The translations under genes and the position numbers were made by a program. 22,844 bases of DNA, taken from the IMG/VR virus record IMGVR_UViG_3300021373_002789, positions 1-22,844 of that record; one strand, given 5' to 3'. Below the pieces are notes generated by a model, which was not told the DNA's origin, made no database searches, and saw only the letters and a list, made by a program, of their open reading frames with translations. The DNA is from a virus. The first letter of the stretch is position 1. Each line of letters begins with the position of its first letter. Shown in pieces: positions 3,801-22,844 of the stretch.

Positions 3801-6800
3801 CAGCACTTGCGTGGTTACCCCAACCATAAGCAGTGTTCCAATTAGTTGAGTTACCTCCTGTAGCTGTTACTGTACTTGACGCTGTAATAGTTCCCGTAAC
3901 ATCAAAGTTTTTCAAACTCTTTACAATATTTGCATGGCTTTCAAATATGTTGGTAGTTCCGATACGATGAACAATTTCTTGAGAAGAAGAGCTGAGTGTT
4001 AAAGCGTCTCCACTTGTAGCGTTTTGAGTATCTATAGAATAAACTACAGCATCACTACTGTTTTTGAAATAAATGTGATGGTCATCGTCATCAGTAGTGT
4101 CTTTTAGCTCAAGAGTTGGTCCGCCGCTATGTAGCTTAACAGTGCTTGTAAAAGTTTTTATTCCTCCAACAGTTTGAGTGCCGGTTGTACGAATAACAGT
4201 GCTATCTACCGCGAATTCACCTGCTGCACTTTTATCAATGCCGGATCCTCCAGACAAAGCCGCTATAACACGAGAGTCTAAGTAGTAAAGATTATTATCG
4301 CCTTCTGTTAAGTCATCAGTTGTTAAAGTACCAAAACTAGAAGGAGAGCCTACAATATCTCCGATAAAATCACCGTAAAAAGTATCTGCGGTTACATTTG
4401 TATTTCCAAAATTCCAACCTGCTAAATTACTATTTGGTCCAAGACCCGTCTCTGCATATACTAATCTTACGTTATCTGAATCTCCTCGCTCTACTTCTAG
4501 TCCTGCTGTAACAGTATTAGCAGGAGTTCCTGTTTGGCCACTATTTACAACAATTATGTTATCCTCAACGGTTAAAGTAGCAGTGTTAATAGTAGTACTT
4601 GTGCCATTCACAGTGAAATTACCAGTAACAGTAACATTGTCCGAAAACGTCTTGTTTCCTCCGATTGTTTGAGCACCCGTTGTACGAACTACTGTGTTAT
4701 CTACTTGAATATCATCGGCGTTTGCGGTAATTCCATCTCCGCCAATAACATTTAAAGTCTTATTGTAGTTACCACTTGTAGCGCTACCTCCTCCAGTAAG
4801 TCCAGTACCCGCAGTAACAGTGACTCCTGTAATATCTCCCACATTTGTAGTGTACCCAAAACCTGTTACAAAGTCGTATACATGATCGCCTGTAGGTATT
4901 GTAGTAGCTCCATCAGTAACAGCCCCGGTATTTACACTTAAACTAACGGAGCCGGAGGTTCCTCCTCCAGTAAGTCCAGTACCTGCGCTTACATTTGTAA
5001 TATCACCAGTATTAGTAGTGTAGCTATACGATAAAATCTTATCCTCAACAGCGGCCGCAGTCATTAAATGAACGTCGTCATTTTCAAAAGTTGCCCCACC
5101 GGTAAGCAATGAGCCCGTAGCTATTTCTGAAGTAGTTAGTCCGGAAACATTTAAAGTAACAGAACCAGAAGCTCCGCCTCCCGTGAGTCCAGTACCCGCA
5201 GTTACATTTGTAATGTCTCCAGCGTTTGTAGTATAGTTAAAACTTTCAATTCTATCGTTAATTGCAGATGCAGACATCAAGCGAGTGTCAGAGTCTTCAA
5301 AAGTTTCTCCTGCAATAATTAAACTGCCTGCTGCTATTTCGGATGTAGTTAGTCCGGAGACATTCAAAGCTACAGTACCTGAGGTTCCTCCTCCGGTAAG
5401 ACCTGTTCCGGCGGTAACTCCTAGTATATCTCCAGTAGCTCCAGTAGCTACAGCAGTTACTCTGCCATAAGCGTCCAGAGTTATAGTATCAATTTTTGTA
5501 CCGTTCGCCGTTGAGCCATAAGTAGCTGCTCCAGGTCCGGCAGTATTAAGTGCTAAAGTTACTCTATTATTGTTGTCATCATCTGTTGCCGTTATTTCTG
5601 TGTGTAGATTGTGGTCAAATAATCCGCCTGCTATATCTCTGATTTCTTCGTTGCTTTTCTGTGTATTAGCAGCGGTGATTGTGCCATCCGCGTCAATAGT
5701 AATGTTTGTTCCTGCTGTAAGAGCAGCAACAACATTTACTGTATCAGTTACATCTGCATTATCTTCAATAGCGTCAAGCTTTGTTTTGTCTCCATCAGCA
5801 AAAGCACCTTCAGAAGGCTTTGGTTGAAGATTAGAAATAGTAACGCCCTTAACGCCTGCTAAGTCAGTCAACTCATCGTCCATTAACGCGCCAGCAGTTC
5901 TAACATTTGCTGTATCTGTTACATCTGCATTATCTTCAATAGTGGATAGTTTAGAATTGAGAGCATTTGTAAAGTTATTATCAGTCTGGCTAGCTACACT
6001 AAAATCTAGGCTATTTCCAGCATCATCATAAGTAACAGTAATACCAGATTCAGTGTTTCCAGAAACCATTCCTCCTACAATATCTTGTACTTCCTCGGTA
6101 GTAAGAGTTTGATTTGAAGAAGAAATAGTACCGTCCGCAGCAATAGTAATATTTGTGCCTGCTGTAAGAGCACCTACAACGTTCGCTGTATCGGTAACAT
6201 CCGCATTTTCTTCTATATTATCTAGTTTGGTTTTTAAGGTGTTTGTAAAGTTATTGTCAGTTTGGCTTGCCGCACTAACAGTTGCTTCAGTTCCATTTAC
6301 CGAAAGATTTAATCCTGTAGTAAAATTAAAGGATGCGATACCGGTTCCTTCACTGGTATTATCTTCTTTTACTTCAATATCTGCTGCTGCAGTTGCGTTA
6401 ATTGTAGAAGACGCATCAATAGTAACACCATTCAATTCTAAGTCACTGCCATCAAATAGAATATATTTGTTTGAGTTACCGAATACCATTTTGCCGCCTG
6501 TAAGATTTAAGAAGGCGCCGCTTTCTGTACCAGAAGGGGCTGCGTCCGCATCTGGAATAGTGCCGCCCTGCATAGTACCTGCAGTTACCGCGCCTAAATC
6601 TGCTGAAAGCGCAGATAGGTTTGTTGCTGTAATATTGCTAGCAGTAATAGTAGTTGCATCAATAATTGTTGATACAATTGAGTTTGACTTAATGTGCGAA
6701 GATTGAATAGTAGAAGCAGTAATTAATGAAGACACAACAGAGTTTGATGTAATCATATCTGCATTAATACTGTTTGCCGCGATCTCATTTGCACTAATAC

Positions 6801-9800
6801 TGTTTGCCGCGATCTCATTTGCACTAATACTGTTTGCAGCAATTTCGTCTGCCGTAATAGTGTTTGCTTGAATCTTATCAGCAGTAATTGAGTTTGCCGC
6901 GATTTTGTCTACACTAATACCACCATCTTTTACAGCGATTGTTCCGTCGTCAAGAGTCTCTGTAGTACCCTCCGCATCATCAGAAGCGCTTCGCAAAGTA
7001 ATAAAGTTGTTTGTAGAAATAGTGCTACCACTCTTGGTAATTTCAGCAAAAATAGAATCGTTTGCATAGTCAGGACGGAAAGCAGAACGATATCCTGTAA
7101 TATTTGTTTTTGCAGTATCAAAAGTACGATCAATTAGTAGTTTAGTATCTGATATAATACCAATTACAACTGCTCCATCGCCTTCAGAAGGACTAGTTGA
7201 GTTTTGTAGATTTAGTACATCTCGTAGCTTTACATTGGTATTAAAACCGCTTCCAGTAACTTCATTAGAGTTTGCAGCAACAGACACAGTGCCAATAGAT
7301 GTCCAGGCAGTTGAAATAGCAGAATTTCCTGTACCTACATCTCTGTAAAACTGTAAGTCAGAAAGCGCAGTTGAATCATACTCTAATAATTTTAGAGAAG
7401 GTGTAGCAGTGTCCAAATAAAGATAATATTCTTCATCTGTAGAAATATTTGATACGTTTTTAGTACCTGTTATAGTGTAAGTAACAAAGGGGTTTGTTAT
7501 AGAAGCTACACTTGCATTTGTAGCTTGAAACTTAAAATGATTATTAGAATCTATTACACCTTGTGCAGTTGAGATTACTCCTTTTGGAATACCTCCTGCC
7601 ATACGAGGAACATTTTCTCCATAGGGGTCATAAACTCCGTAGTCAATCGCAGTGTAAGAAGATCTATTTCCTTGTCTTGAAACAGCTCGTACCTTAAATG
7701 TTACACTTCCATTTGGTACATTATTAAACACTACTTGTCGAGAGTTTGTTTTTATAGGATTATCTACACCTTCTATAGAATGTAAAACTTCGTACTGTAC
7801 TATAGAGTCTGCATCCGACTCTGGCTCATCCCACTCGAAAATAAGTTCTTCACCCGGTTTTTTGGCATCTGTTGCAAGCACAACTCTCGGATTGATAGGA
7901 CGAGGTAAAGTAGCGGGTTCGTTTTCTATAAAAATGGAAGCAGGAGTAACCCCTAACTCATACTCTTCTTCAATCGCAGTAAATTTAGCGTCATAGTATT
8001 CAACTGCGCTAATTGCAAAAATATTGGGCTCTTCTTCAGAAATACTGAGTATCTTATACATTTTTTCAGAGCCGTTTACATTTAACCCTCCAGAGGTTTC
8101 TTTTAATGCCCATACAGTATTTGCAGGAGGGTTTGTATCAAAAGTAGCAGACCCGTCTAAAGTAACAGTATTTGTGCTGTTTCCGGGGTTTGATATTTGA
8201 TGTGTTTCTACATACGAATAAGGCTTCCAGATAACAGGAAGCAATTCTGAGCCAGAACTATCTATAAATGCATTAGATGCTTCTTCTTCTGTGTCTAAGG
8301 TTTGGTACGAGTAAGTTCCAGAGCTATACACCCATGCCGCGTCAATTCTTTCCCCTCTAGCATAAGTAAAAGGAACTGCGGTAGGAGTTGTATCATCATA
8401 TATGGTTATAGTGCCCTCTGACGCATTTAACGCTGCAGGCGCAGTTACGAGAGTACTTAACTCATAAGTAGAACCAGAATTAAAGGATACATTTCTATCA
8501 AAAGTTATAGTGCTCGAAGTAGAAGACTTTGTTCTACCACTATAAGATACACCATATCTATCTGCATCTTGCACATTAATAATATCTCCCGGCTTAACAT
8601 AGTGAGCAGCAAGAGAAGTTTTAAATGATACAATTTCTGTTTGATTCTGAGCAGTCCAAAGCTTCCATCGACCATAGCGTATAGCTTGACTTTCCGATGT
8701 TGCTCCAAAAGCAATTACATTTTGAGATATAATTCTGTTACTTCGAACAATACTCTCTCTGTCTTCTACAACCAGAGGCACAGGTTCATAGTTGATAGTT
8801 GGGTCATTCCAAGTAACAACTACTTGATTCATTCTAGTTCGAGAACCTGAAGACTCATAAGAAAAAGCTCCATCAATTACATTACCCTTTGTAAAATTGT
8901 ATACAGGATCTTGAGGTGCGTCTTGCACAGGAGTAATTTTAGAGTCTTGCCAATAGAGTATTCCTAAAAATATAGTTGCAAAGTCTTTTAGTACTTTATA
9001 AATATCTGTTGCTTTTGTTAAAAATACATTCGCGCGAAAACGAGGCTCAACTCCGTAAGCTACACCTGTTCCAGAAATAGAAGTACTTGTAGCTTCAAAA
9101 ATAGTGCCTACATTACTATTCGCAGCACCTAACGTGGTCCAGTCTGTATCTCCTGCTGTATGTATTCTATAAAAGTTTCCTTTTGTTAAAGGTTTAGTAG
9201 AGTCGTATTCAGTACCATCATCTACAAGCTCATCACAGTATCTTGCAATTCTGTACAGTGCAAACTTATCAATTTCTGTATCTGAAATCCACTTACCTGC
9301 CCCGTATCTATTGTTTGTTACAATATCATAAAATACCCATGCAGGGTTATCTGTGTATACGGGAACAGTTCTAAATGTACCATCCCAGAATCCGTCATAC
9401 TTTGCAATTCCATCATCTGAGTATTCTCGAGGCGTGTAAGTATTAGGAATTTTTACAAGTTTTCCTTCTAATAAGTAGCTTCTTTTAGGAATTCCATCAA
9501 ATTGACGAGAAGAAAAATTAATAGAAGCAAGGGCACTATAAGGATAGTTAAGATTATCTTTAATTACAGCACGAAGACTACCAATAGAAGCTTGGGCGGA
9601 TAACTGCCACTTTTTCTTATTTGTATCATTCTCATTCGTACCACTGGATCTTACAGGAAGACCAATATGTCGAGTTATTCTTACAACTCTAACTTGGAAA
9701 TCTTCAAAAGGACCTACTATATTTCTGTATCCATCTAAGTTTACTTGATGGTCAAAAGAAATTGGAGCATTCGTGTTCCCGTAGTGTCTTACATAAGTTC

Positions 9801-11034: not shown

Positions 11035-11046
11035 TATAAATCTCTC

Positions 11047-11790
11047 TTACCTAAATATAAAACGCTGAGGCCCTTCAGCAGGTCCGCCCGGTCCTTGAGG
11101 CCCATTCGGCCCCTCTGTTGGAATTGGATCAGTAGTATCTGCAGGAGAGTCTGTATAGTAGGTACCTGCATCATAATAATTTAGTCTTTCATTTCGAACT
11201 TGTAAACTAATTGGTCTGCCAGGAACTCTTAGTTTACCATATAGCACTGGAACAGGGTCTCCTTCTACTAGAGTTTGGCCCGTGCCTTGGAATAAATAAC
11301 TTTCATCTTGGTCATTATCAGTACTCGGGTCTGGAGCAAGCATTTCCGATATACCGGTCATTGCTAAATTAATGCCTATAGATGTTCCTATAATAAGAGC
11401 TGTGGCTTGTAAAGCTCCCATGGCTCCTCCAGCTCCTGAAGCTAAATAAGCTGCTCCTGCTTGACCAAATGTTGTTATAGTTAAGTATATTATAATAATA
11501 CCTGCTATAAGTTTACCTATTCCTCGTCCAGATCCTGCTGCTACTGGCGTTATGCGTATATCTCCTTCATTTAGTACAAGTAAAAGCTCTCTTTCGTCTT
11601 CTACTGGGGCTCCTGCTATTTCACAGTCAAATAGTATACCTTTTTCATCACAATCAATTAAGTATTTTTTAAAATCTGGAAAATTACCGTCTAAGCACCT
11701 GATAGCTTCTGCAAAAGAATTTACGTTCATAGTAAATTCTTTACCAAACTTATGTCCCATTTCCCCTTCTAGGTAAACTTTACGCTTCAT
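11047..11790 (-). CDS. I: Tail assembly protein I (gpI-like)
   Basis: This 247-residue protein has the three-part plan of lambda gpI: an N-terminal ubiquitin-like region (1-85, with FTMNVNSFAEAIRCLDGNFP at 19-38 and RELLLVLNEGDIRITPV at 67-83), a hydrophobic Gly/Ala/Ile-rich middle (about 91-146), and a conserved strand region (LVEGDPVPVLYGKLRVPG, 174-191). The C-terminus (221-242) is Pro/Gly-rich with collagen-like triplets. In lambda, gpI is needed to assemble the tip initiator but is not found in the finished virion. The start at 11790 overlaps the end of gpK by 11 bases and has AGGA upstream; gpJ begins 12 bases downstream. The hydrophobic middle could be taken for membrane helices but is typical of the family. 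Confidence 0.88.
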   Translation of the reverse strand: MKRKVYLEGEMGHKFGKEFTMNVNSFAEAIRCLDGNFPDFKKYLIDCDEKGILFDCEIAGAPVEDERELLLVLNEGDIRITPVAAGSGRGIGKLIAGIIIIYLTITTFGQAGAAYLASGAGGAMGALQATALIIGTSIGINLAMTGISEMLAPDPSTDNDQDESYLFQGTGQTLVEGDPVPVLYGKLRVPGRPISLQVRNERLNYYDAGTYYTDSPADTTDPIPTEGPNGPQGPGGPAEGPQRFIFR

Positions 11791-12466
11791 GTCGATATAT
11801 TCCTATTATATGTTTACCCCAAAACGGGTAAAGAGACTCTCTGCAAGAAAGTCTGTTTTCTGCGTGATGAAAAAATACATCTTGCCCTATGTAAACTCCA
11901 CAATGATTACCTTTTAAACTTTCTATAGCAAAAATTAATAAATCATTTTTTTCTGGGGTTTTTACTTTTCTAAAACCCCACTTAGATATGTTTTTTTCTG
12001 TAAAATAGTCTAAATCTTTTTCCCACCAATCCTGCTCAAAAGGCTCTCTTTTAGGTATAGTTATACCTTCATTTTTTAACCAATCTCTCATAGCTTCAAA
12101 GCAATCTTGTATACCAAACTCATACTCTCTACCTACTAAAGGGTAAAAACACTCTTTTGGCTCTACAATATTTAAATTCATATCTGGGTATGAAAAAATG
12201 TAATAAGGTATTCCTAGAGCATTGCAATGATTAGTATCGTTTTCACTTGGAGTATTATCATTATCTAAATGATTGTGTACAACTCCTATAATATCTGCTC
12301 TGTCTTTTATACTAAACCATTCTTCTGATGAAATTACAAATTCTTCGTTCTCTGAAGCAATATTCTTACAAGGAAACCAACGTTTTTTACCTTTTACAAC
12401 ACCAATTATACCACAGCCTTCTTTGGGGTACTCATTATCAAAATGAGCTTTTATCTCATCTATCAT
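11780..12466 (-). CDS. K: Tail-tip protein K: JAMM peptidase plus NlpC/P60 hydrolase
   Basis: The 228 residues hold two catalytic domains. Residues 1-100 are a JAB1/MPN domain: E16 (YPKEGCG) and H64-x-H66-x7-S74-x2-D77 (HNHLDNDNTPSEND) fit the JAMM zinc motif, with Leu after the second His where Pro is usual. Residues 110-228 are an NlpC/P60 domain: nucleophile C122 (IQDCFEAMRDW), H188 (NHCGVYIGQD) and H200/H201 as candidate third residue. In the lambda family this protein acts in tip assembly and is thought to cut peptidoglycan during DNA entry. The ATG overlaps the gpL stop as ATGA (12463-12466), so translation is coupled. Both active sites look intact. Confidence 0.92.
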   Translation of the reverse strand: MIDEIKAHFDNEYPKEGCGIIGVVKGKKRWFPCKNIASENEEFVISSEEWFSIKDRADIIGVVHNHLDNDNTPSENDTNHCNALGIPYYIFSYPDMNLNIVEPKECFYPLVGREYEFGIQDCFEAMRDWLKNEGITIPKREPFEQDWWEKDLDYFTEKNISKWGFRKVKTPEKNDLLIFAIESLKGNHCGVYIGQDVFFHHAENRLSCRESLYPFWGKHIIGIYRHEA

Positions 12467-13500
12467 CTAAACTGTTTGGCTCCTGGGAACCCTCCAAAAG
12501 GTAATATGAAAGAAGTATTTAAAGTTTCATCACTATTATTTCCTTGGAATCGTATTTTACAAGAGTTTAGTGTTTTTCCACAAACATCTATTCTTGTCCA
12601 ATATCCTTTTGAATTTCTAGGATTATATTGTCCATTTGAAGTTTCTGCAGGAACTACCCGTATAGTCTGCCAAATTTCTGTGTGGCCATTTGTAATTGTT
12701 TTTGTTTTGTACCCAAGCGCTCGAGAATCATTGCTAGTACTAGAATCATAAGTTGGTATTGAAGAAATATTTTTTGTTATAATATTATCGTCTTTATCAA
12801 AAAATCTTCCTTCGCTATCTAAAGGCCATATACACCCTCCATCTTCGGATGCTACAACAGGATCTTGTGTTCTATCGGGATAATAGTGTCCTTGATATTT
12901 CCATGGACAGTATTTTCCTATAACTACTCTGTTAGGAAGTGTTACTCCTTCTACATCCATAGGGCTTGCTAACTCAAATTGAACAATCATATTACTTTCT
13001 GAAGAGACTCTATCAATAATATAAGTTTGTGAAGGAAACTCCATAGGGGGGCTAGAGACTGAAGGAGCATCTGAAACTGTATACGTTTTTCCAAACAAAG
13101 TTCTACGTATAACTACTTTGCTGTTTAATAAATCTTCATTATTTGAAACTCCTTCTGCAACTAAAATATCTAAAATATCTTTTTCATCATCAATTCCATC
13201 TGAGTTATTTGCTATAGTTCTAGATATAATGGGAATATTTGCAACAGATAAAGTTGGTCTATTAGATGCTCCTGAGCTAGCAGTTTCTATTCCTTCTACT
13301 TCAATAGGTATTGCTACATATTCTTTTAAATTATAAGCAGAATTAGTTATTTCTTTTTCTGGAAAATAAATATTATTAGTTCCGTCGTCTAAACCATTAA
13401 AAAAGTATACTATAGTACCACTAGGCAAAGTTACTTCAAATAAGGTTACTAAAGCGTCAGCTGTCTCTTGTAATTGTACGGTATCTATTAAGTCGCTCAT
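12463..13500 (-). CDS. L: Minor tail protein L, predicted iron-sulphur tail-tip protein
   Basis: This 345-residue protein sits between gpM and gpK as in lambda. It has exactly four cysteines: C198 (IGKYCPWKYQ), C223 (DGGCIWPLD), C307 and C314 (VCGKTLNSCKIRF). Lambda gpL binds a [4Fe-4S] cluster through four C-terminal cysteines, the last two also seven residues apart, so a cluster is likely here. The N-terminal region (1-190) matches the DNA-blocking ring domain common to gpL proteins, with VYFFNG and the ITNSAYNLKEYVAIPIEVEG stretch. It is longer than lambda gpL (232 residues), with an extra about 60 residues between the cysteine pairs. The start overlaps the gpM stop as ATGA (13497-13500). 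Confidence 0.9.
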   Translation of the reverse strand: MSDLIDTVQLQETADALVTLFEVTLPSGTIVYFFNGLDDGTNNIYFPEKEITNSAYNLKEYVAIPIEVEGIETASSGASNRPTLSVANIPIISRTIANNSDGIDDEKDILDILVAEGVSNNEDLLNSKVVIRRTLFGKTYTVSDAPSVSSPPMEFPSQTYIIDRVSSESNMIVQFELASPMDVEGVTLPNRVVIGKYCPWKYQGHYYPDRTQDPVVASEDGGCIWPLDSEGRFFDKDDNIITKNISSIPTYDSSTSNDSRALGYKTKTITNGHTEIWQTIRVVPAETSNGQYNPRNSKGYWTRIDVCGKTLNSCKIRFQGNNSDETLNTSFILPFGGFPGAKQFR

Positions 13501-13916
13501 GGCTCATAAACTCTTCGTAGTGTGCATGTTAAAGAATGAAAGTTTTCTCTAATATAAGTTATGTTGTATTCTTGACAAACTACTTTTATTGTGCTATTTG
13601 ATAAATTCCCTCCAGTAAAAGTGTCTGTTATAGTAAAGTTAAAACTTTTACCTGCTTTAGTGTCAAAAAAAGCAGCAATTAAATTTATATCTTGTGCAGT
13701 TCTATTGTTAAAAGAAATACTAAAAGAATCGTTTTTTGTATTTATTCCATCAAGAACTCTTTGCTCATAGCCATCTCCAAAGTTAGCAGTAAGAACCCTG
13801 TGTTGAGAATTTCTACTCATTCCTCTATCTGCAGTAGCTTCGAAAGCCGATTGACCTGAAGTATTTTTTAAAGAATTTACTTCCGATGCTGATATAGTAA
13901 AACTAAAAGTTGACAT
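13497..13916 (-). CDS. M: Minor tail protein M
   Basis: At 139 residues it is close to lambda gpM in length and holds the family hallmark FGDGYEQR at residues 46-53, followed by the beta-rich stretch SFSISFNNRT and a conserved F-F-D-T-K-A-G-K-S-F-N-F segment (83-94). gpM forms a hexameric ring joining the tail tube to the gpL/gpJ tip. Its position after the tape measure and before gpL is the lambda order. The start overlaps the tape-measure stop by one base (TAATG) and the stop overlaps the gpL start (ATGA), so it is translated as part of a coupled run. Confidence 0.92.
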   Translation of the reverse strand: MSTFSFTISASEVNSLKNTSGQSAFEATADRGMSRNSQHRVLTANFGDGYEQRVLDGINTKNDSFSISFNNRTAQDINLIAAFFDTKAGKSFNFTITDTFTGGNLSNSTIKVVCQEYNITYIRENFHSLTCTLRRVYEP

Positions 13917-16900
13917 TAAGCTACTCCCATCGGATTAAGTATTCCACCGGCTCTTTTTTGATTATGTAACTCTTTTTGCACTGCCTGTGCTATCAAAACT
14001 CCTAATTTTTCTGATCGGTTATCATCAGCTTTGGAGTTTTGAGAAGAGTTACCGTTAGAATCTACTGCAACATTTACAGTAACATTGTTTTGTTGTCCTG
14101 CTCCATGTAAATCAACCGGTATAGACTTTCCGTTTGGTAAAGGTACTACTGCTTCTGTGCCGTGCAACATTGCAGGATAGCCTGCTTGGGGACCTTTAGC
14201 AATACCTCCTGCAGAATATCCAGGGCCTTTTGCAATTCCGCCATACCTATAAAAGTTCCCTTGCGATCCTGCTCCATACCCCTGTGGACTATTTGCTACA
14301 GCGGCTCCTGAACTATTATATTGAATTCCGCCAGTACTTCCAGTTCCCATTCCTATAATCGTTTGCATTATTTTTACAGCTATCATTTCTGCAATGAGTC
14401 GTGCAAGAACTTGTAAAATCATTCTACCCATATTTAAGAAAGCATCTTTTACACTTGAAGTTCCTTGAATAATAGAATCAAAAGCATCTGCAAATCCTGT
14501 TTCAAGACTTTGACTTAGCTTATCTGTAGCTTGCTGTAAAATATCCATGTTGTCTTCTGCTACCCTAGCTTTCTCTTCTAGTAACATTATTTCTCTTTTT
14601 CTTTGTAGGATTTCTTTTTGATGCGCTTGCTCTGCTAAGGGTCCTCCTGTTATTATTTTTTGCTCTAACTGAAGAAGCATTGCTTGTTTTTCACGAAGTA
14701 ATAAGTTGGCTTCTTTTGCTTTTCTTTGAAGAACTGCCTGCCCTCTAGTAAGAGAAGGCAACCTAACATCACTTACTGCTTCTTTTTGAAGCTTAAATCT
14801 ATCAAAAGCTATCCCATCTAACTCTGCTTCAATTTGTCTTAAAATTTCGGGTAGCTGTTCATAATTATCTCCGAGTAGCTTTTTAATAAGAACTCTTTGA
14901 GGGCCTTCTTCGATTTGTTGAGTAGTAAACCCTAAAGTTTTCATTATAGAATCTAAATTTTTAACTTCATTTACCATTTGTTCCAAACCAATACGGAGCT
15001 GTAAAGGGTCCCCGGAACCTAGTTGATTTTTTAAATTACTTCCCATACCTTGAAGATTGGTCATTCCTGAGCCAAACCCTAAAGCCGCTGCTTGTAGAGC
15101 GGCAATTTCGTCATCTGTGCCATTTTTTAAAGCTTCTATAAATGCGGGAGGTAATAGACTAAATCCTTCACTCTCAAGTATACTATCATACCTCTCTTTA
15201 GCATTTTTTTGCATTATAAGTATAGCATCCATACTTAGTCGTAACTTGTCATTTAATTCTTGTTTTTCTTCTTCTGTTAATTCACCTCTTAAAAACATAC
15301 CCACAACGGCACTTTGTCTCGCATGAATATTATCTAGCTCTTCTTCATACTTTTCAAGAGCTTTTCTAGCGCCTCCTAAATTTCCTGTAGCTATTGCCTT
15401 CATTTGAGCTTCTACGTCTCCTTGGCCCGCTTTTCCGGAAAAAATATTTGCAAAATCTTCAGCTAAAGTAGAATACTCATTAGTTAACTCTTTTACTGTT
15501 TGTAAGCGTTTTTCTTCATATTCTGAGATTCCTTTAATAAAATCATTTTTTGCTTGAACTACTTCAAGCTCTTCTCTACTGGTACCTAAAGCACTTAAAG
15601 CTCTATCTTCCAAAGCCTGTAAGTTCTCTTCTATATTATCTGCAAAAGTAAACTTACTAAAAATTCCTTGTGAAGTATCATACCCCATTTTATTTAAAGC
15701 AGTCTCAACAATAGAATTATCTAAAAGTCTATTTAATCCTTCAATGATTAAGTTCAAACCAATTTGCAAGGTTTTTACCACGCCTGTTATCATTGCCTTG
15801 AAGCCATCAATAGCTCTAATAGGGCTTTCTTTTAGTTCTGCTAGGGCTTTACTAATAGCAATTATACCTGTTAGTACAAAACCTCCTATTTTTAAAGCAG
15901 ATTTAAGTTTTCCCATATTTCTTTTCGCAAAGTTTGCAGCATCTCCAATTTTTCTCACACTAGTCGCTGTAAGACTAGCTGTTTTTTCTACGCCTTTTAA
16001 TCCTATTAGAGCAGCTTTTCTGAAACCTTTTATCTCTTTTTCAGAATCATCTAAATTATCTTCAAACTTATTGATTTCTTTGTTTATATCTTCAATAGCT
16101 TCTACTGTTAAGCCTCCAAAAGCTTTTGAAGCTGTTTCACCTGTTTCTTCTAATTCTTTTTTAACTCTCTCTAAATCTTTCTTCAGACGCCCTAGAGCTT
16201 GAGGGGATACTACTTCTCCTGCTGCAAGTTTCTGTAATGTTTTACTCTTTGCTCCACCTTCTATTGCGGCACCTGCGCTTTTTTCTAGTTTTGTAGTAAC
16301 ATCTTGTAGTTTTTCTTCTAAAAATAAAGCGGCTAATTCTAAATCTTCTGCTTTATTTTTTATGAAGGAACCAATTTTACTTGCGGCACCTCCAGTAGCC
16401 ATTTTAGTACCACCAACAGCAAGTTTGCCCATTTTAGCGACAGCACCTGCTACGCTTCCTACCATTAATTTTATTGCACCACCAAATCCTGCAATATTTG
16501 CAAGTATTAATGCAGCTAACGCTGCAAATGCAGTAGCGGCTGCTTGAGCATTGTTATTAATAATATTTACTAACCCCGTAACCGCAGGCATTGCTTTTTC
16601 TGTTATATCTTCTACTATTTTTTGAAATGTTTTCTGTAACTGTACAAAGGGGTTTGCTTCTGGGTCAATTGCTCCAAAAGTATCATTTAACTGTCTCATT
16701 GTTTCAACAAAAACTGCTTGACTTCGCTCTGCCGTTGTAAGAGCATCACGAGATTTGCCTATTGCAGTTGCATATCTTTCTGTTGCTTCCTCAAGTCGTA
16801 GAGTGATACCTAATTCATCCAATAGTTCTGGTTCTGCTTTTGATACACCTCTAAGCAGTCGGTTAAAGGTGTCTTCAAACTCAAGACCTAAACCTTTTGA

Positions 16901-17383
16901 AGCCTTTGTCGCTCCAACAACAAGCTCTTCTAGTTGTGCGTTAGAAAATCCTTTTGCAGCACCCGTAGCCGCGGCTTGAGCGGCCATTTTAAAATCCATC
17001 ATTCCTTGAGAAGATTCTTGTAAATTATTGGTTAAAGTTTTTATTGCAAGACCAGAACTAGAAGCAAAATCAATTTGAGCTTTACGTAAGTTTTCTAAGT
17101 CTGCTGCTCTTTTTAAAAATCCGAATGCAGCGCTTAAGGCAAATACTTGAGCAGCAAAACTTGCATAGATACCTACAAGACCTCCCATGCCTTGAGACAT
17201 TTTAGAAAAGTTTTTACCGGCGCCTGAAGAAGCTTGTGCAGCACCTTTTAGTCGTCTATCTGCAGTATGTGCGCTTGTACCTACATTGTCTAACTGCTTT
17301 CCAAGCTTAGCGGCATCAACGGAAACTTTTTCCATTTTACCGTTAACCATTACGTCAATAAAAACCTTATTTCGTTTTGCCAT
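13916..17383 (-). CDS. Tape measure protein
   Basis: The 1155-residue product fixes tail length; at the usual rule of about 0.15 nm per residue it predicts a tail of about 170 nm. It is helical throughout, with hydrophobic stretches near residues 67-95, 280-318, 495-515 and 985-1005, a long coiled coil at about 873-958 (LLREKQAMLLQLEQKI and following) and the C-terminal HGTEAVVPLPNGKSIPVD motif (about 1071-1090) common in tape measures. Residues 125-250 include a family-conserved stretch (FEDTFNRLLRGVSKAEPELL). I see no lysozyme, transglycosylase or peptidase domain. It starts one base after the GT chaperone stop (TGA-C-ATG), as expected because the chaperones coat it during assembly, and its stop overlaps the gpM start. 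Confidence 0.95.
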   Translation of the reverse strand: MAKRNKVFIDVMVNGKMEKVSVDAAKLGKQLDNVGTSAHTADRRLKGAAQASSGAGKNFSKMSQGMGGLVGIYASFAAQVFALSAAFGFLKRAADLENLRKAQIDFASSSGLAIKTLTNNLQESSQGMMDFKMAAQAAATGAAKGFSNAQLEELVVGATKASKGLGLEFEDTFNRLLRGVSKAEPELLDELGITLRLEEATERYATAIGKSRDALTTAERSQAVFVETMRQLNDTFGAIDPEANPFVQLQKTFQKIVEDITEKAMPAVTGLVNIINNNAQAAATAFAALAALILANIAGFGGAIKLMVGSVAGAVAKMGKLAVGGTKMATGGAASKIGSFIKNKAEDLELAALFLEEKLQDVTTKLEKSAGAAIEGGAKSKTLQKLAAGEVVSPQALGRLKKDLERVKKELEETGETASKAFGGLTVEAIEDINKEINKFEDNLDDSEKEIKGFRKAALIGLKGVEKTASLTATSVRKIGDAANFAKRNMGKLKSALKIGGFVLTGIIAISKALAELKESPIRAIDGFKAMITGVVKTLQIGLNLIIEGLNRLLDNSIVETALNKMGYDTSQGIFSKFTFADNIEENLQALEDRALSALGTSREELEVVQAKNDFIKGISEYEEKRLQTVKELTNEYSTLAEDFANIFSGKAGQGDVEAQMKAIATGNLGGARKALEKYEEELDNIHARQSAVVGMFLRGELTEEEKQELNDKLRLSMDAILIMQKNAKERYDSILESEGFSLLPPAFIEALKNGTDDEIAALQAAALGFGSGMTNLQGMGSNLKNQLGSGDPLQLRIGLEQMVNEVKNLDSIMKTLGFTTQQIEEGPQRVLIKKLLGDNYEQLPEILRQIEAELDGIAFDRFKLQKEAVSDVRLPSLTRGQAVLQRKAKEANLLLREKQAMLLQLEQKIITGGPLAEQAHQKEILQRKREIMLLEEKARVAEDNMDILQQATDKLSQSLETGFADAFDSIIQGTSSVKDAFLNMGRMILQVLARLIAEMIAVKIMQTIIGMGTGSTGGIQYNSSGAAVANSPQGYGAGSQGNFYRYGGIAKGPGYSAGGIAKGPQAGYPAMLHGTEAVVPLPNGKSIPVDLHGAGQQNNVTVNVAVDSNGNSSQNSKADDNRSEKLGVLIAQAVQKELHNQKRAGGILNPMGVA

Positions 17384-17384
17384 G

Positions 17385-17819
17385 TCAGCCTTTTACATTA
17401 TGGGTGTAGTTTTTTCCACCGCTTTTCGCTTTACGTTCTTCTGCTTTGCGTTTTTTGTCTGCTTGATCTGCTTTATAAAGTACTATCTCTCTTTCATAAA
17501 GTTTCATAAAATATAGTACTATTCTAGGATTTTCTATTTGATAAACTTTAAAAAAGTAGTCTAGTCCATCCCAGTATTTTCCCATGTATGTTCCACTCAT
17601 TCCTTCCCAGTGATCTGGTAGTAAGCTGAACATAAAAAATGCCACTTGAACTTCTTCTGGAAAGTCAGAAGGTTCGAGCGGCATTTTGGTAGGATCTGGT
17701 TCTTCCCCTAATTGTTCACATAGAAGCAAGTACTTCTCTACATCGAAGTTACTATCTGCCTCCTGTACATATCGCTTTAGTAGAGATTGGATTCGCTCTA
17801 CTTGCTCCCAGTAAAATTT
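17385..17819 (-). CDS. Frameshift extension (T part) of the G-GT tail assembly chaperone
   Basis: This frame has no credible start of its own: it opens just after a TGA at 17820-17822, exactly at the slippery site AAATTTT (17813-17819) inside the upstream chaperone gene. A -1 slip there continues as Y-W-E-Q-V-E-R-I-Q and runs 142 codons to the TGA at 17385, giving a fusion of 278 residues (136 + 142). Internal landmarks include FFMFSLLPDHWEGMSGTYMG and a basic Lys/Arg-rich tail (KADQADKKRKAEERKAKSGG). In lambda the equivalent gpGT recruits tube protein to the chaperone-coated tape measure. It ends one base before the tape measure start. A TTG at 17729 could be called as a start but has no role in this model. 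Confidence 0.88.
   Translation of the reverse strand, partial: KFYWEQVERIQSLLKRYVQEADSNFDVEKYLLLCEQLGEEPDPTKMPLEPSDFPEEVQVAFFMFSLLPDHWEGMSGTYMGKYWDGLDYFFKVYQIENPRIVLYFMKLYEREIVLYKADQADKKRKAEERKAKSGGKNYTHNVKG
17779..17802 (-). promoter_or_regulatory. Putative frameshift-stimulating stem-loop
   Basis: The minus strand reads AGTAGAG (17802-17796), a 10-base loop, then CTCTACT (17785-17779): a perfect 7-bp stem. It starts 10 bases after the slippery heptamer and contains the zero-frame stop TAG. Position and strength fit a downstream stimulator, though the spacer is slightly longer than the 5-9 bases most often reported. Confidence 0.6.
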
Positions 17820-18220
17820 TCAAGATCACCTACAGTTTCGGTAACCCACGTATCAAATACGTTAGAGTTCTTCATAAGAAGCTCTGCGTTTTCTTGAGTA
17901 TAGGGAAGCTCATCTTCAGGGTCGTAAGCCGAGACATCTACCAAAAGAAGCTCTTCTAGGTACGAAAACTTCAAGCCAGACCACGTTTTAATGACTGCTT
18001 TACAATACTCTAACAAAAACTTTTCTTCATCTAATACTTCTTCAGGTTGTCGAGTTTTTTTATCAAACTTCGTGCTTACACATTTTTTACGCAACTTAAG
18101 AAGTTCTTCTCTTCCTAGATAGCAAAGTGATACTTTCATATCTTTGTATCCGGGAAAATCAATAGAAACAGTTTTACTTGGAGTCATCAGACTCGCTAAA
18201 GAAACAGGTGAATCGCTCAT
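17798..18220 (-). CDS. Tail assembly chaperone, short form (gpG-like)
   Basis: This 140-residue cytosolic protein lies between the tube protein and the tape measure, the position of the lambda G chaperone. The sequence is acidic and helical, with KKCVSTKFDKKTRQPEEV (about 45-62) and the conserved WSGLKFSYLEELLLVDVSAY stretch (about 80-99). Its stop TAG at 17798-17800 follows the slippery site by 12 bases. Most ribosomes should end here and produce the short chaperone; a minority should shift to make the fusion. It is the first gene after promoter P1 and has its own Shine-Dalgarno (AAGGA at 17227+1000, that is 18227-18231, 6-base spacing). The family was assigned from position, size and the frameshift as well as sequence. 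Confidence 0.92.
   Translation of the reverse strand: MSDSPVSLASLMTPSKTVSIDFPGYKDMKVSLCYLGREELLKLRKKCVSTKFDKKTRQPEEVLDEEKFLLEYCKAVIKTWSGLKFSYLEELLLVDVSAYDPEDELPYTQENAELLMKNSNVFDTWVTETVGDLENFTGSK
17813..17819 (-). promoter_or_regulatory. Programmed -1 frameshift slippery heptamer
   Basis: In the reading frame of the short chaperone the minus strand reads A AAT TTT, an exact X XXY YYZ heptamer. After a -1 slip both tRNAs re-pair on AAA and TTT. The alternate frame is closed by TGA immediately upstream (17820-17822) and open downstream for 142 codons. A Shine-Dalgarno-like AGGTGA (17826-17831) lies 6 bases upstream and might add to the effect. Confidence 0.85.
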
Positions 18221-18226
18221 TTTTTA

Positions 18227-18231
18227 TCCTT
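18227..18231 (-). promoter_or_regulatory. Shine-Dalgarno of the tail assembly chaperone gene
   Basis: AAGGA on the minus strand, 6 bases before the ATG at 18220. It falls within the roughly 30-base leader expected from promoter P1. Confidence 0.7.
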
Positions 18232-18256
18232 TGAGAGTGTAAATTTATATCTTGTA

Positions 18257-18285
18257 ATTATAGGTGAAAGGAGGTGAGATGTCAA
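18257..18285 (-). promoter_or_regulatory. Perfect-consensus sigma70 promoter (P1)
   Basis: The minus strand reads TTGACA (18285-18280), 17 bases (18279-18263) and TATAAT (18262-18257), again an exact sigma70 consensus. Transcription should start near 18250, about 30 bases before the chaperone ATG. The A-rich AAAAAATAAA (18297-18288) upstream of -35 is the same as in P2. The promoter is placed directly after the tube-protein terminator, restarting transcription for the chaperone, tape measure and tail-tip genes. Confidence 0.9.
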
Positions 18286-18305
18286 GATTTATTTTTTATA
18301 GGAGT

Positions 18306-18330
18306 AAATAAAAAGGGGCCGAAGCCCCTT
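18306..18330 (-). terminator. Rho-independent terminator after the tail tube gene
   Basis: On the minus strand AAGGGGC (18330-18324), loop TTCG (18323-18320) and GCCCCTT (18319-18313) form a perfect 7-bp stem closed as C(UUCG)G, one of the most stable tetraloops, followed by a T-rich tract (TTTTATTT through 18306). It lies 20 bases after the tube-protein stop. Confidence 0.95.
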
Positions 18331-18349
18331 AAGATATGATATTTTATTA

Positions 18350-19444
18350 TTATGCGCCGACGTACTTTATAGACAGTTCGTCAGTTCCATCAATTGTGCT
18401 AGGCAACGCATGGAAAGTAGTTTCAATTGAGATAACATCATCAATTGAGTGAGTAGGAACTTCTAGGTGACACTGTGACATTAGCAATTCAACTCGAGGA
18501 GTTGCAGTTCCTCCAACTTTGAAGGTTAAAGTAAAGTCATTTGTAATCTTAGTAGTATCTTCGATAATGTTTTCAAATAGTTCCGCACTTGAATCATCCG
18601 CCGCGTTTAGATAACACGTAAAGTTACCAGAAACAGAACGAGTTCCAGTTACATGGCCTAAAGGCTGATTAACTACGCCTAGAGTTTCTGGAGTAAGGAA
18701 CGTAATATTATTTGAAACTGTAACGTTTCCTCCTGTTAATACTAAGTCGTAAGTTGCAGGATGATTACCTCCCATAGCTGTAGCAGCCGTTAAGCTTGTT
18801 AAACGATTACGAATAAAGTTGCTTGTATCACTTGCACCCGCGCCTTCTGTAACAGTAGCAGTAGGTTCGCTGTCTTCAGTAATAATCTTACCAAAACCTG
18901 ACCAGTTAATAGTAGCAATTCCATCAATATCAAAGTCAAGAGAAGCTTCGTTTACAACACAGCCTGCAATCTTATAAGTCGTTTTTGTGCCGGAGCCTGC
19001 TCCACCCATTACAAAAAAGATATCTGCTTCTCCTAAAGTAGTCTTATTGGAAGAAGTAAAGGCAATATCAAGATCTGTAGTATCTCTAGTAAATCCAGTA
19101 AAATCATAAGAGGCATAAGCAGCATCTCCAACCATTAATGCCCAAAGAACTTCTTCTACTGCGTGATGGCTGTCTTGTGTATCATCCGCGTTACCTGAGC
19201 CGCTCGCTTTGAAGGGGCGCATATAAGTTGAAAAACTCCACTCTGCAGGTGCATAGGAGTCTGTAAACATTTGGCGACCCCGTCGGCTGTTGCCGCTAGT
19301 GTCTGCCATCTCGTTCAGAGTAATTTCTGACGCATTTGTTGCTTGCGAAAAGGAGAATCCATCAAGAACAGGCATTTCCCAAATAGCACTGCCTATCTTA
19401 ACGAATACCTTAGTATCGCGACTAAAATATAATGTATCTGTCAT
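18350..19444 (-). CDS. Major tail tube protein
   Basis: The 364-residue, beta-rich, cysteine-poor protein lies between the tail terminator and the chaperones, where the tube subunit always lies in lambda/HK97-type modules. Its start (TLYFSRDTKVFVKIGSAIWE), the helix-strand pattern around residues 25-75 (ATNASEITLNEMADTS, SYAPAEWSFSTYMRPF) and the last third (VSGNFTCYLNAADDSSAELF, VPTHSIDDVISIETTFHALP) match the tail-tube family. Hundreds of copies stack into the tube. It has the best ribosome-binding site of the window (AGGAG at 19452-19456, 7-base spacing) and is followed at once by a strong terminator, both fitting high output. At 364 residues it is longer than lambda gpV (246), so an added surface domain is possible. 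Confidence 0.9.
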   Translation of the reverse strand: MTDTLYFSRDTKVFVKIGSAIWEMPVLDGFSFSQATNASEITLNEMADTSGNSRRGRQMFTDSYAPAEWSFSTYMRPFKASGSGNADDTQDSHHAVEEVLWALMVGDAAYASYDFTGFTRDTTDLDIAFTSSNKTTLGEADIFFVMGGAGSGTKTTYKIAGCVVNEASLDFDIDGIATINWSGFGKIITEDSEPTATVTEGAGASDTSNFIRNRLTSLTAATAMGGNHPATYDLVLTGGNVTVSNNITFLTPETLGVVNQPLGHVTGTRSVSGNFTCYLNAADDSSAELFENIIEDTTKITNDFTLTFKVGGTATPRVELLMSQCHLEVPTHSIDDVISIETTFHALPSTIDGTDELSIKYVGA

Positions 19445-19505
19445 AGTATATCTCCTATGGTATTGAAAGGACTAGGACGTGAACGTTTGTTCGTGCCAGC
19501 CGTTT
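19445..19505 (-). promoter_or_regulatory. 61-base leader of the tube gene with strong Shine-Dalgarno
   Basis: The gap between the tail terminator gene (stop TAG at 19506-19508) and the tube gene contains AGGAG (19452-19456) 7 bases before ATG. I see no consensus promoter or terminator in it; a weak 4-bp inverted repeat (GAAC/GTTC) near 19480-19495 is too small to call. The tube gene therefore probably shares the upstream transcript. Confidence 0.55.
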
Positions 19506-19967
19506 CTAGTAACGAACCTCCAGAAGGATTTCTCCTACACCTAGGGGTTCCAATACTCCTTCATCAGTATCAATACTAATAATACTGATTTGATGTGTGT
19601 GTTCTGTATCGCCTCGACGATTTGTAAACTCTAATCGAGAATTAGTCTCAACTACAGTCTCTATGTCTTCTAACAGTTCATCTAAAGCTACAGTCGGGTC
19701 TTCGTCTTTTACATATACTCTAATGGTAATTGCAAAAAATCTATCTTTATAACCTCCGCCTTGATACTGTCTGCTTTCCCCTCCTGCATTTAAGTGCAGT
19801 GCAGGAAACTCATCTACTTCATCCCAGAATTTTAGTCGAGGATGAACATTTCCATAAACATTAGTATTAAAGTCTCCATTTCCATCAATTTCTTTTAACT
19901 TGTCTACTAACGCATTAACAATTCCTAGCCTACGGGTAGTGTATATTCTATTTGTATCCGTAGTCAT
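19506..19967 (-). CDS. Tail terminator protein (gpU-like)
   Basis: The 153-residue protein has the mixed alpha/beta plan of tail terminators: an N-terminal helix (RRLGIVNALVDKLKEIDG), a strand pair around FPALHLNAG, a long strand (FFAITIRVYVK, about 84-94), a helix (ALDELLEDIETVVETNS) and a C-terminal strand that ends in GVGEILLEVRY. It sits immediately before the tube gene, as in lambda and HK97. It forms the ring that stops tube growth and joins the tail to the head. Its ATG overlaps the upstream stop by one base (TAATG). The assignment rests on fold pattern and gene order. Confidence 0.82.
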   Translation of the reverse strand: MTTDTNRIYTTRRLGIVNALVDKLKEIDGNGDFNTNVYGNVHPRLKFWDEVDEFPALHLNAGGESRQYQGGGYKDRFFAITIRVYVKDEDPTVALDELLEDIETVVETNSRLEFTNRRGDTEHTHQISIISIDTDEGVLEPLGVGEILLEVRY

Positions 19968-21265
19968 TAGCTTCTCCTGACTCCATATCTCCCAACCGCT
20001 AATTCAGTAGCTATTTGTCGTATGGACATTTCTATTAAAAGTCTTGGGTCTCTATCACGAGTATACATTTTACCTCCAGGAGCAAAAACTGCATAAGGAT
20101 TTGTCATATAATTATAACCAATACTTAAATTACCCTTTGCAGTTGTAGTTGCATTAGCGGTAACAGTGCTAGCAAATCTTCCTGTACGATAAACCAGTCG
20201 AGGAGAAGTCATATTGTCCATCAAAGTATCATGAAGCCTTATATTAATCATAGCAATAATATTATGTAAGCTATACTCTGATTCAGACCCTTTAAGATCT
20301 CCTGATCCTTTTCTAGAGCGCCTTACTTTTTTAGTAAGAGGCTTTTTTGTAGTTACTGCTTTATCTTTTGCTTTTCGTCTTCTTTTTTTCGTTCCTGATT
20401 TTACGTGTTTACCTTTTGAAATATCTGCCGTTACAGAGTCAAGTATCATATCTGTGTGGTCGTCTTCCATGCTTGGACTTCCTGACATGGTATACCAATT
20501 CTGGGTTTGTGCCCACTCAAATATAGCGTCTTCTAATTCTGGTTTAATATTTTTCCAATCTGCTGGTACACCTCCTGCAGGATTTTCTTTACTAGACATT
20601 AAGCTAAGGCCTACTTCTACACTTTCTTTTATAGTGTATTTTCGTCTTCGACCTCTTCCACTAGTTTCGAAGTACATTTCTACCCCGAACTTATCGGATA
20701 GCTTTTTTGCCTGCTCACTAGCAACAAATCCTCCAAAAAGATTTGTTCTGCTTAAACTTTCCATGGATTTAGCTAGTTGTGCCATTCCAACTGTAATAGG
20801 GTCTCCATGCATATTCTGCTTGGTACCATGTTGTCTAGATAATCCTAAATTAAAAGACTCTGTCTCTTCTTCTCCGAACTCTACTTTTAAAGAAGCTTCT
20901 AAGTATCGTATTGCTGCTCTTTTAACTACTCTAAAAGGTTCTGTGTCTCGTCCGGTTGCTTGAGTAAAAAATACTACTTGAGTGCTGCTAAATCTGATTG
21001 CATGCTTATCACTAGGAGTTCTTAGATGTCTTCTAAGATTTATCATAGCATAACGAGCAGCTCTATGTAAAACTACATCATCTACAAAAGGTAGTTTTGA
21101 TTTTCTTTTTTGAGCAAGCCCATAGCTATGCTTTATACCATGAAAAAGATTTTCTGTAGTTACCAAAACTTTTTGAGGCATTTTATCAACGCCTCTTCTA
21201 GCGTATCTGCTATTTGCTGCTTTATACATACGGCGCATAACACGCTTAATGTTTGCCTGAGCCAT
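19967..21265 (-). CDS. Uncharacterised neck or tail-completion protein
   Basis: I do not recognise the family by name. The 432-residue protein lies between the head-tail connector and the tail terminator, where HK97-type phages carry a neck (gp10-like) protein, but it is much longer than those. The N-terminal 60 residues are Arg/Lys-rich. Residues 60-280 appear alpha/beta and may be a separate domain. Residues 289-320 form a very basic low-complexity linker (GTKKRRRKAK, TKKVRRSRKG). The last 100 residues look like a structural domain (MTSPRLVYRTGRFASTV, NYMTNPYAVFAPGGKMY, DPRLLIEMSIRQIA). It is stop-start coupled on both sides (TAATG at 21263-21267 and 19965-19969). A head-closure or minor head role is inferred from position; DNA contact by the basic linker is possible. 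Confidence 0.75.
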   Translation of the reverse strand: MAQANIKRVMRRMYKAANSRYARRGVDKMPQKVLVTTENLFHGIKHSYGLAQKRKSKLPFVDDVVLHRAARYAMINLRRHLRTPSDKHAIRFSSTQVVFFTQATGRDTEPFRVVKRAAIRYLEASLKVEFGEEETESFNLGLSRQHGTKQNMHGDPITVGMAQLAKSMESLSRTNLFGGFVASEQAKKLSDKFGVEMYFETSGRGRRRKYTIKESVEVGLSLMSSKENPAGGVPADWKNIKPELEDAIFEWAQTQNWYTMSGSPSMEDDHTDMILDSVTADISKGKHVKSGTKKRRRKAKDKAVTTKKPLTKKVRRSRKGSGDLKGSESEYSLHNIIAMINIRLHDTLMDNMTSPRLVYRTGRFASTVTANATTTAKGNLSIGYNYMTNPYAVFAPGGKMYTRDRDPRLLIEMSIRQIATELAVGRYGVRRS

Positions 21266-21840
21266 TAAAAGTTTTTATACATATCAAGTACTCGCTTAAT
21301 ATGGTCTGGGAACGCTACACTATCGCCTCTTCCAATTTGATTCTCTACAGTTGCTCCTGATAAAGTGCGTCGAGGAGTATGCTCATCTTTCATGTAGTAC
21401 TTGATTAAGTCTACAACTGCTAGTCGCAAGTCTACAGGACATACGGAGTACCCTGCTGTATATGTAACTTTTACTGATCCCGCTCCACGAGGCCAGTTTT
21501 TATAGGTAGATCCTGTTACGTACAGTACACTATCCGTCGTCGTGTCAAGATAATAGTCTGTAGTTGGCACGGTGGTGTAACTTTCCGTAACAGAATCTCT
21601 TTTTTCTACAGAAACAATAGCATTTACTGGAGACTCTGTAAGCTGTACAATATGAGTGTCCCAGTCCATGTTAAATGTTTCTACTTTATTAGTTGTGTAG
21701 TGGTCAACAATACTGTTTCCACAATAAGTTTTTACTAATTGACTCACTGAATCAATCATTTGATTTATACGAAAGTCGTCCTTAGGATTAGTAAGGCCTT
21801 CAATCTGTTTATAATCTGCAAGAGTAATTAAATTTGCCAT
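21265..21840 (-). CDS. Head-tail connector protein (HK97 gp6 / SPP1 gp15-like)
   Basis: The 191-residue protein begins LITLADYKQIEGLTNPKDDF, followed by a helix (RINQMIDSVSQLVKTYCG), a beta region (VETFNMDWDTHIVQLTESPV) and a C-terminal helix pair (CPVDLRLAVVDLIKYYMKDE); this layout is that of gp6-type adaptors that ring the portal. It lies just after the capsid gene, as expected. It starts after the capsid terminator with a poor ribosome-binding site (no AGG in the 15 bases before ATG), so its output should be low relative to capsid protein. It overlaps the next gene by one base. Confidence 0.88.
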   Translation of the reverse strand: MANLITLADYKQIEGLTNPKDDFRINQMIDSVSQLVKTYCGNSIVDHYTTNKVETFNMDWDTHIVQLTESPVNAIVSVEKRDSVTESYTTVPTTDYYLDTTTDSVLYVTGSTYKNWPRGAGSVKVTYTAGYSVCPVDLRLAVVDLIKYYMKDEHTPRRTLSGATVENQIGRGDSVAFPDHIKRVLDMYKNF

Positions 21841-21855
21841 AATAAATCAATTAGT

Positions 21856-21881
21856 AAAAACTTGGGGAGGAAAACCTCCCC
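21856..21881 (-). terminator. Rho-independent terminator after the capsid gene
   Basis: On the minus strand GGGGAGG (21881-21875), loop TTTT and CCTCCCC (21870-21864) form a perfect 7-bp GC-rich stem followed by AAGTTTTTA with five T (21860-21856). Flanking AACT/AGTT can extend the stem with a one-base bulge. It begins 20 bases after the capsid stop. No promoter follows, so downstream genes depend on read-through. Confidence 0.92.
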
Positions 21882-21900
21882 AGTTTATTAGCTATAGCTA

Positions 21901-22844
21901 TTAAGCTACTGCGTCGAGTCGAACTACAGAAACGTCTGCTGCAGTGTCTGCTACGAGCTGGTTAAAGCCGAGAGACTGAGTAGCAACGATAACGTTACGC
22001 TGGTTCATTACTTCGTAGTCTTGCTCTACGTTCACACCGCGGAGGCGTGGGATAGCAAAGTTACGAACGTTGACCGCTAGACCAACACAAGCGTTGTCAG
22101 CTTCCGCAGGGAAGTTGTCAGATACGATTACGGGAGTACCGAAGATCGCACCAACCTGACCAGTGATCTTGGTTGCGACGTCTGAACCTACGTCTGTGAT
22201 GTCCGCGAAGCCTGCGTCTGCAATCAGATCGTAGTAACGCTTCTGAGATACTACATATACGAGCTCTTCTGGCATCATACCATACTTACCCATCAACTTA
22301 CGAGCTGAGAGGAAGTCGGCTGCGTCTACCGCAGTTCCGCCAAGGTTAGCTGCTGATACTGAAGTATCAAAAGTGTTGCTGCCTGCGAGCTTGATGAGAC
22401 CATCAAAGTCGTCAGAGCCGCCAGTAGCTACGTGGTTGAGCAGAGCATCGTCAACTGCGCGAGCGTGTGCACGTGCAACTGATTCTACAAGCATAGGCAT
22501 CAAGTTGATGAGTACTTCCTCGTCAACGTGGTTATCCATCAACGTGGTTGAGATCAAACGGTATGCCTTGAGTACTACCTGTGCAGGCTGAGGAGTAGCA
22601 CCGCCGCGAGTAGTCAAGTTGCCAGATGTAGCAGCGCCAGTCTGGAACGTAGCCAGACCAGTATCTTGCTGGATTGGCAGTACTTGTGCTTGTGAGTTGA
22701 TCTGGATCTCACGGAATGCACGTGCGAGGCGAAGCTCACGCATGATTTCCTTCTCGATTTGACCAGAAACTTCAGTAGCAATGTTTGGAGCAGCAGAAGC
22801 GTAAGTTACGCCAGCCTTCTCGATTACATCACGACCGTAAGCAG
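21901..22844 (-). CDS. Major capsid protein, HK97 fold, 5' end cut by window edge
   Basis: 313 residues are visible; the frame is open to the right edge, so the N-terminus (and any delta domain) lies outside. The internal ATG at 22743 is not the start, because the reading frame continues upstream with AYGRDVIEKAGVTYASAA, the typical start of the mature N-arm region. HK97-fold landmarks follow: IEKEIMRELRLARAF, the VLPIQQDTGLATF stretch, AYRLISTTLMDNHVDEEVLI (E-loop to spine helix), HARAVDDALLNHVATGG, the ARKLMGKYGMMPEELVYVVS segment, FGTPVIVSDNFPAEAD and a C-terminal strand pair. Base composition is clearly richer in GC than the rest of the window (31 of 60 bases in the first line of the gene against 22 of 60 in a line of gpK), with C-ending codons for Asn, Phe and Tyr, as expected of the most abundant phage protein. 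Confidence 0.95.
   Translation of the reverse strand, partial: AYGRDVIEKAGVTYASAAPNIATEVSGQIEKEIMRELRLARAFREIQINSQAQVLPIQQDTGLATFQTGAATSGNLTTRGGATPQPAQVVLKAYRLISTTLMDNHVDEEVLINLMPMLVESVARAHARAVDDALLNHVATGGSDDFDGLIKLAGSNTFDTSVSAANLGGTAVDAADFLSARKLMGKYGMMPEELVYVVSQKRYYDLIADAGFADITDVGSDVATKITGQVGAIFGTPVIVSDNFPAEADNACVGLAVNVRNFAIPRLRGVNVEQDYEVMNQRNVIVATQSLGFNQLVADTAADVSVVRLDAVA

Follow-up and report, generated by a model that had tools for sequence, protein, structure and literature searches.

Predicted −1 frameshifting in the tail assembly chaperone genes of a T5-like marine phage lineage, and a probable difference in shift direction from the T5 clade at a homologous codon

Introduction

The closest described counterpart of the locus analyzed here is the −1 frameshift that relates the phage lambda tail assembly chaperones gpG and gpGT (Levin 1993; Xu 2004, 2013, 2014; cited in PMC5009743). 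Tailed phages in general use −1, −2, or +1 shifts, in different phages (PMC5009743). The tape measure chaperones of Caulobacter phages phiCbK and Colossus involve a −1 frameshift at AAAAAAC or GGGAAAC (PMC3556154), and the influenza A virus PA-X protein involves a +1 site, UCC_UUU_CGU (PMC3498833). In T5 and other Demerecviridae, the pair p143/p142 (T5.143, T5.142) is mostly annotated as two separate genes, and the Sugarland paper states that no predicted frameshift signal was found, similar to T5. The records of phages Shivani and Sw2 carry a joined coding sequence (labelled 'Tape Measure Chaperone Frameshift Product' in Sw2), indicating that a fusion has already been suspected.

Here we analyze a 22,844-nucleotide stretch of viral DNA (IMG/VR record IMGVR_UViG_3300021373_002789; hereafter 'the window') and its relatives. 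From the sequence comparisons, we assign a probability of about 95% to a lambda gpG/gpGT-type −1 frameshift in the tail assembly chaperone gene of this T5-like marine lineage; the comparison with relatives raises a predicted frameshift to one that we strongly infer. We also consider it very likely that the homologous chaperone pair has reversed its shift direction at one and the same Phe codon, −1 on A AAU UUU versus +1 at UUU_CGN.

Results

In the window, two overlapping open reading frames immediately precede the tape measure gene, and the upstream neighbours of the pair are T5-like tail tube, terminator, and neck genes (Table 1). A sequence-only reading of the window had proposed that both frames encode tail chaperones, and profile comparisons agree: the zero-frame ORF matches the N-terminal half of phrog_313 (E = 5e-11), and the −1 frame part matches phrog_3914 (E = 3e-17), each a tail assembly chaperone family. 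A single phrog_313 protein takes in both halves (T5 short form at 12–141, T5 second frame at 170–258), so that this family represents the fused long form. Neither half has a Pfam or NCBIfam match, and profile searches against the PDB gave weak matches only, all to unrelated proteins. A DNA-level search with the window yielded no match to known phages; protein comparison was used instead, and the first half shows ~30–42% identity to phage homologues. The tail region as a whole is mosaic, with a lambda-like tail tip at 817–13916 (gpM, gpL, gpK, an assembly protein, and a 3405-aa gpJ-like protein) versus T5-like tube, terminator, neck, and chaperone genes at 17385–22743. Adjoining the giant gpJ-like gene, a 113-aa protein (411–749) matches both phrog_1084 (unknown function) and phrog_3304 (L-shaped tail fibre assembly).

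Table 1. Features of the chaperone locus and its neighbours, in window coordinates
Feature	Coordinates	Strand	Details
Zero-frame tail assembly chaperone ORF, gpG-like short form, 140 aa	17798..18220	−	ATG 18220; TAG 17800-17798
Slippery heptamer A AAU UUU	17813..17819	−	X XXY YYZ in zero-frame register
TGA closing −1 frame, abutting heptamer upstream	17820..17822	−	Limits shift to 17819-17798
−1 frame second part, gpT-like, 142 codons + stop	17385..17813	−	Open after slippage
Zero-frame stop TAG	17798..17800	−	12 nt 3′ of heptamer, within 5′ arm of stem
Stem-loop, candidate stimulator	17779..17802	−	7-bp stem, 17802-17796 with 17785-17779; 10-nt loop; covariation, synonymous-null folding
SD-like AGGTGA, possible stimulator, weakly supported	17826..17831	−	Ends 6 nt upstream of heptamer
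Tape measure protein gene (context)	13916..17383	−	phrog_3779, E = 2e-41
Tail tube (major tail) protein gene, T5-like (context)	18350..19444	−	phrog_3575, E = 1e-53; PF18906

The zero-frame ORF, whose ATG is preceded by an SD-like sequence (−5.4 kcal/mol), ends ...GGT GAT CTT GAA AAT TTT ACT GGG AGC AAG TAG. We verified on the minus strand that the heptamer proposed in the sequence-only reading, A AAT TTT, occupies the position assigned to it and stands in zero-frame register, that a TGA directly before it closes the −1 frame, and that 142 codons are then open, giving a predicted fusion of 136 + 142 = 278 aa. AAATTTT is the sole canonical heptamer between this TGA and the zero-frame stop. The perfect 7-bp stem-loop of the earlier reading, starting 10 nt downstream of the heptamer and holding the zero-frame stop, is likewise present. 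The window contains 7 copies of the bare 7-mer vs. 12.7 expected, so the 7-mer as such is no rarity there, and shuffled versions of the window's 71-nt downstream segment fold just as well (z = +0.77). With 7-mer and fold thus unexceptional within the window, the single sequence alone is not proof; conservation is. One literature match for AAATTTT, an unrelated Wolbachia phage hydrolase, was discarded.

Conservation of the heptamer among homologues, proposed earlier as a check, is nearly complete. In a first set of 81 sequences, comprising the window and its 80 nearest IMG/VR relatives, the junction carries AAATTTT in 80 (79 of the 80 relatives), and the remaining relative, L014, carries TTTTTTT, also a canonical heptamer. 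In a wider family set, AAATTTT is present at 102 of 207 distinct junctions and is the sole canonical heptamer within the permitted overlap at 94/94 AAATTTT loci analyzed. Homologues that have lost the heptamer while keeping both frames, which the earlier reading had counted against a frameshift, do exist, but they carry another slippery site instead: A AAA AAC, further downstream and often abutting the zero-frame stop, in a sister clade (about 50 of the 207 junctions); A AAU UUC in a single case, L141; and G GGA AAC in another, L280. A single contig, L150 (GCT AAT TTT), has both frames with an imperfect slip site only, and outside the −1 lineage, T5-type relatives use a +1 frame instead (see below). 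In the sister clade (L156–L232, for example L177 and L204), the site often reads AAA AAC TAA and is followed by strong downstream folding. Two single contigs, L232 and L233, have both halves in one reading frame; these may reflect an error (homopolymer or assembly) or a real, lasting fusion, and in L232 a homopolymer error could be the cause.

Conservation extends to synonymous positions. Among 30 representatives (80% clusters), A AAT TTT is kept in 30/30, although AAT and TTT account for only 58% and 76% of synonymous codons elsewhere in the genes; in the sister clade, the site has AAC in 15/15 vs. 24% usage among synonymous codons there, and the odds computed from such usage are indicative, not exact, because the sequences are related rather than independent. 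Only a single frame is read across the heptamer, so dual coding does not account for its invariance.

The downstream stem is conserved as well. Across 37 gap-free sequences, the seven named stem pairs are formed in 83% of cells, compared with 35–53% when the pairing is slid, there are 23 double-change cells vs. 9.7 when shuffled, and the covariation score is equalled by 0/500 shuffles. Synonymous recoding of the −1 frame weakens the fold in the AAATTTT class (30 representatives; mean z about −2.2 to −2.3), and the corresponding mean z for the AAAAAAC class is −2.4; the +1 class has no excess downstream structure vs. synonymous recoding (mean z −0.46). Some relatives (L149, L140, L065) have a weak stem. 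The SD-like AGGTGA also lies where the sequence-only reading had located it, 6 nt upstream of the heptamer, but a role for it as a stimulator is weakly supported: pairing with the anti-SD in the window is −12.7 kcal/mol vs. −8.7 kcal/mol for synonymous recodings, and across the lineage the element is not clearly selected against synonymous recoding (mean z = −0.55).

The pair might instead be two separate genes, with the second frame translated from TTG 17729 or a later ATG through re-initiation or an internal start. A TTG is indeed present at codon 28 of the −1 part (counted from 0), ahead of the first ATG at codon 43, and annotators assign a start of its own to T5.142 and to many relatives. 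However, the TTG is not conserved among relatives, in line with the earlier doubt about this start, and the first second-frame ATG, across relatives mostly codon 43, is without an SD, unlike the zero-frame ATGs, which mostly have one. Moreover, variation in the −1 frame peaks at third codon positions in codons 11–27, before any conserved start, so that the frame is coding well ahead of the candidate starts, and with separate genes the invariance of the heptamer would go unexplained. We conclude that the second frame is without a supported start of its own, and we regard two separate genes as highly improbable.

Still less probable is that transcriptional slippage, rather than ribosomal frameshifting, makes the fusion. 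A4T4 is a short A/T run, and a run of this size is short for polymerase slippage; in addition, the replacements U UUU UUU, A AAA AAC, and G GGA AAC retain the X XXY YYZ codon register, and the downstream mRNA stem is conserved, both of which argue against slippage by the polymerase. A sequencing indel that cuts one continuous gene in two might be entertained for a metagenome assembly, the more so with L232 and L233 in one frame, but about 200 distinct junctions of independent samples show the same split, as do sequenced isolates such as T5, with a consistent direction within each clade. We regard an indel artefact, to which we give a negligible probability, as already refuted by this breadth.

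According to the −1 frameshift reading, most ribosomes would read GAA AAT TTT and terminate at TAG 17800, producing the 140-aa short chaperone, and a minority, held up by the 3′ stem-loop, would undergo a tandem one-base slip backward on A AAU UUU. The P-site tRNA-Asn and A-site tRNA-Phe would re-pair to AAA and UUU, and the slipped ribosomes would read on for 142 codons to give the 278-aa fusion. Both the occurrence and the efficiency of the shift we infer from site, frames, conservation, and stem covariation, which are read directly from the sequences.

In the T5 clade the homologous second frame is +1, namely in T5, Sugarland, AAS21, KKP_3711, DU_PP_V, Eos, phiR2-01, and Shivani, and also in Vibrio phages PG07, D239, 234P1, and Cilsick and Proteus phage Stubb; Aeromonas phage AhSzw-1 (L095), with no long frames at the locus, was left out. 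All 45 of 45 distinct +1 junctions contain TTT followed by CGT or CGA (UUU_CGN), and the permitted +1 interval is as short as AAC AAC TTT CGT TAA in D239 (L083), GAC AAC TTT CGA GAC TAA in L142, and GAT ACT TTT CGT AAG TAA in Eos. The codon ahead of UUU varies (ACU, AAC, ACC, UCC, ACG, UCU), a pattern more easily explained by +1 slippage of a single tRNA, from UUU to UUC. A −2 shift was considered and rejected: back-pairing by two is not conserved, and +1 on UUU_C is simpler. In codons 7–26 of the T5-like +1 frame, which lie past the zero-frame stop and ahead of the first start, variable columns number 8, 5, and 17 at codon positions 1, 2, and 3; this third-position bias, with no start before it, indicates that the stretch is translated. 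The annotated T5.142 ATG has no SD. These results suggest that the second chaperone of T5 arises through a +1 frameshift at UUU_CGN. T5.142 probably starts about 26 codons before the annotated ATG and continues T5.143 in the +1 frame from ACT TTT CGT. The T5 locus in our set (L088, 9459-8625) corresponds to 97458-96624 of record AY543070.

The shift-site Phe is invariant in both −1 and +1 members, and their second halves align as homologues in hhalign (99.9%, E = 6.6e-35). Since the −1 and +1 second frames join at a homologous codon, the direction of the shift has changed at least once. A tree of the fused proteins separates the two modes with two changes, but a single +1 clade is not rejected (AU test, p = 0.44), and in the second-half tree alone one change suffices; the trees are unrooted and give the number of changes rather than their direction. 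In the tree, L284 (TCT TTT CGT, +1) is a neighbour of the A AAA AAC clade, which hints at more than one switch, not significantly. Near position 2385, L140 reads CAA AAT TTT CGG, combining the −1 heptamer with UUU_CGN while the −1 frame is open, which shows that the two modes are only a few synonymous changes apart; GAG AAC TTT CGA, in Cilsick, is two synonymous changes from A AAU UUU. The searchable literature yielded no description of homologous genes that shift in opposite directions at the same codon, nor a report of a UUU_CGN +1 site in phages.

Discussion

The locus resembles lambda gpG/gpGT in having two overlapping frames between the tail tube and tape measure genes, an X XXY YYZ heptamer near the end of the first frame, a second frame without a proper start, and, as predicted here, a short and a long product. 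It differs from lambda in its heptamer (A AAU UUU vs. G GGA AAG), in a conserved 3′ stem-loop that contains the zero-frame stop, and in its proteins, which belong to a T5-type chaperone family matched by no Pfam family. By analogy with lambda gpGT, the long form would form a bridge between the tape measure and tail tube proteins. The heptamers of phiCbK and Colossus recur in the sister clade (A AAA AAC) and in L280 (G GGA AAC), whereas the window comes from a different phage family and has A AAU UUU.

With T5 p143/p142 and other Demerecviridae, the window shares homology of both halves, genome position, T5-like neighbours, and a junction at the same invariant Phe codon; it differs in shifting −1 on A AAU UUU, followed by ACU, where the T5 clade shifts +1 at UUU_CGN. 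The T5-clade site in turn resembles that of PA-X in having UUU then CGN and no evident stimulator, and Pectobacterium phage DU_PP_V has exactly UCC_UUU_CGU. We draw this only as an analogy, with no claim of common origin; the T5 clade is read by bacterial ribosomes, and CGU is common in E. coli, so that the rare A-site codon idea advanced for PA-X does not transfer directly.

The window lineage presents a clear site-plus-stem frameshift cassette, and with it an entire T5-like lineage of marine phages would join those that set the ratio of two tail chaperones by frameshifting. If the +1 shift in T5, a classic model phage, is true, the start annotated for T5 p142 would be wrong, and recoding research would have a bacterial equivalent of the PA-X site that is easy to test. 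The family would also be a natural example of selection preserving both fusion and shift codon while reversing the way the ribosome shifts.
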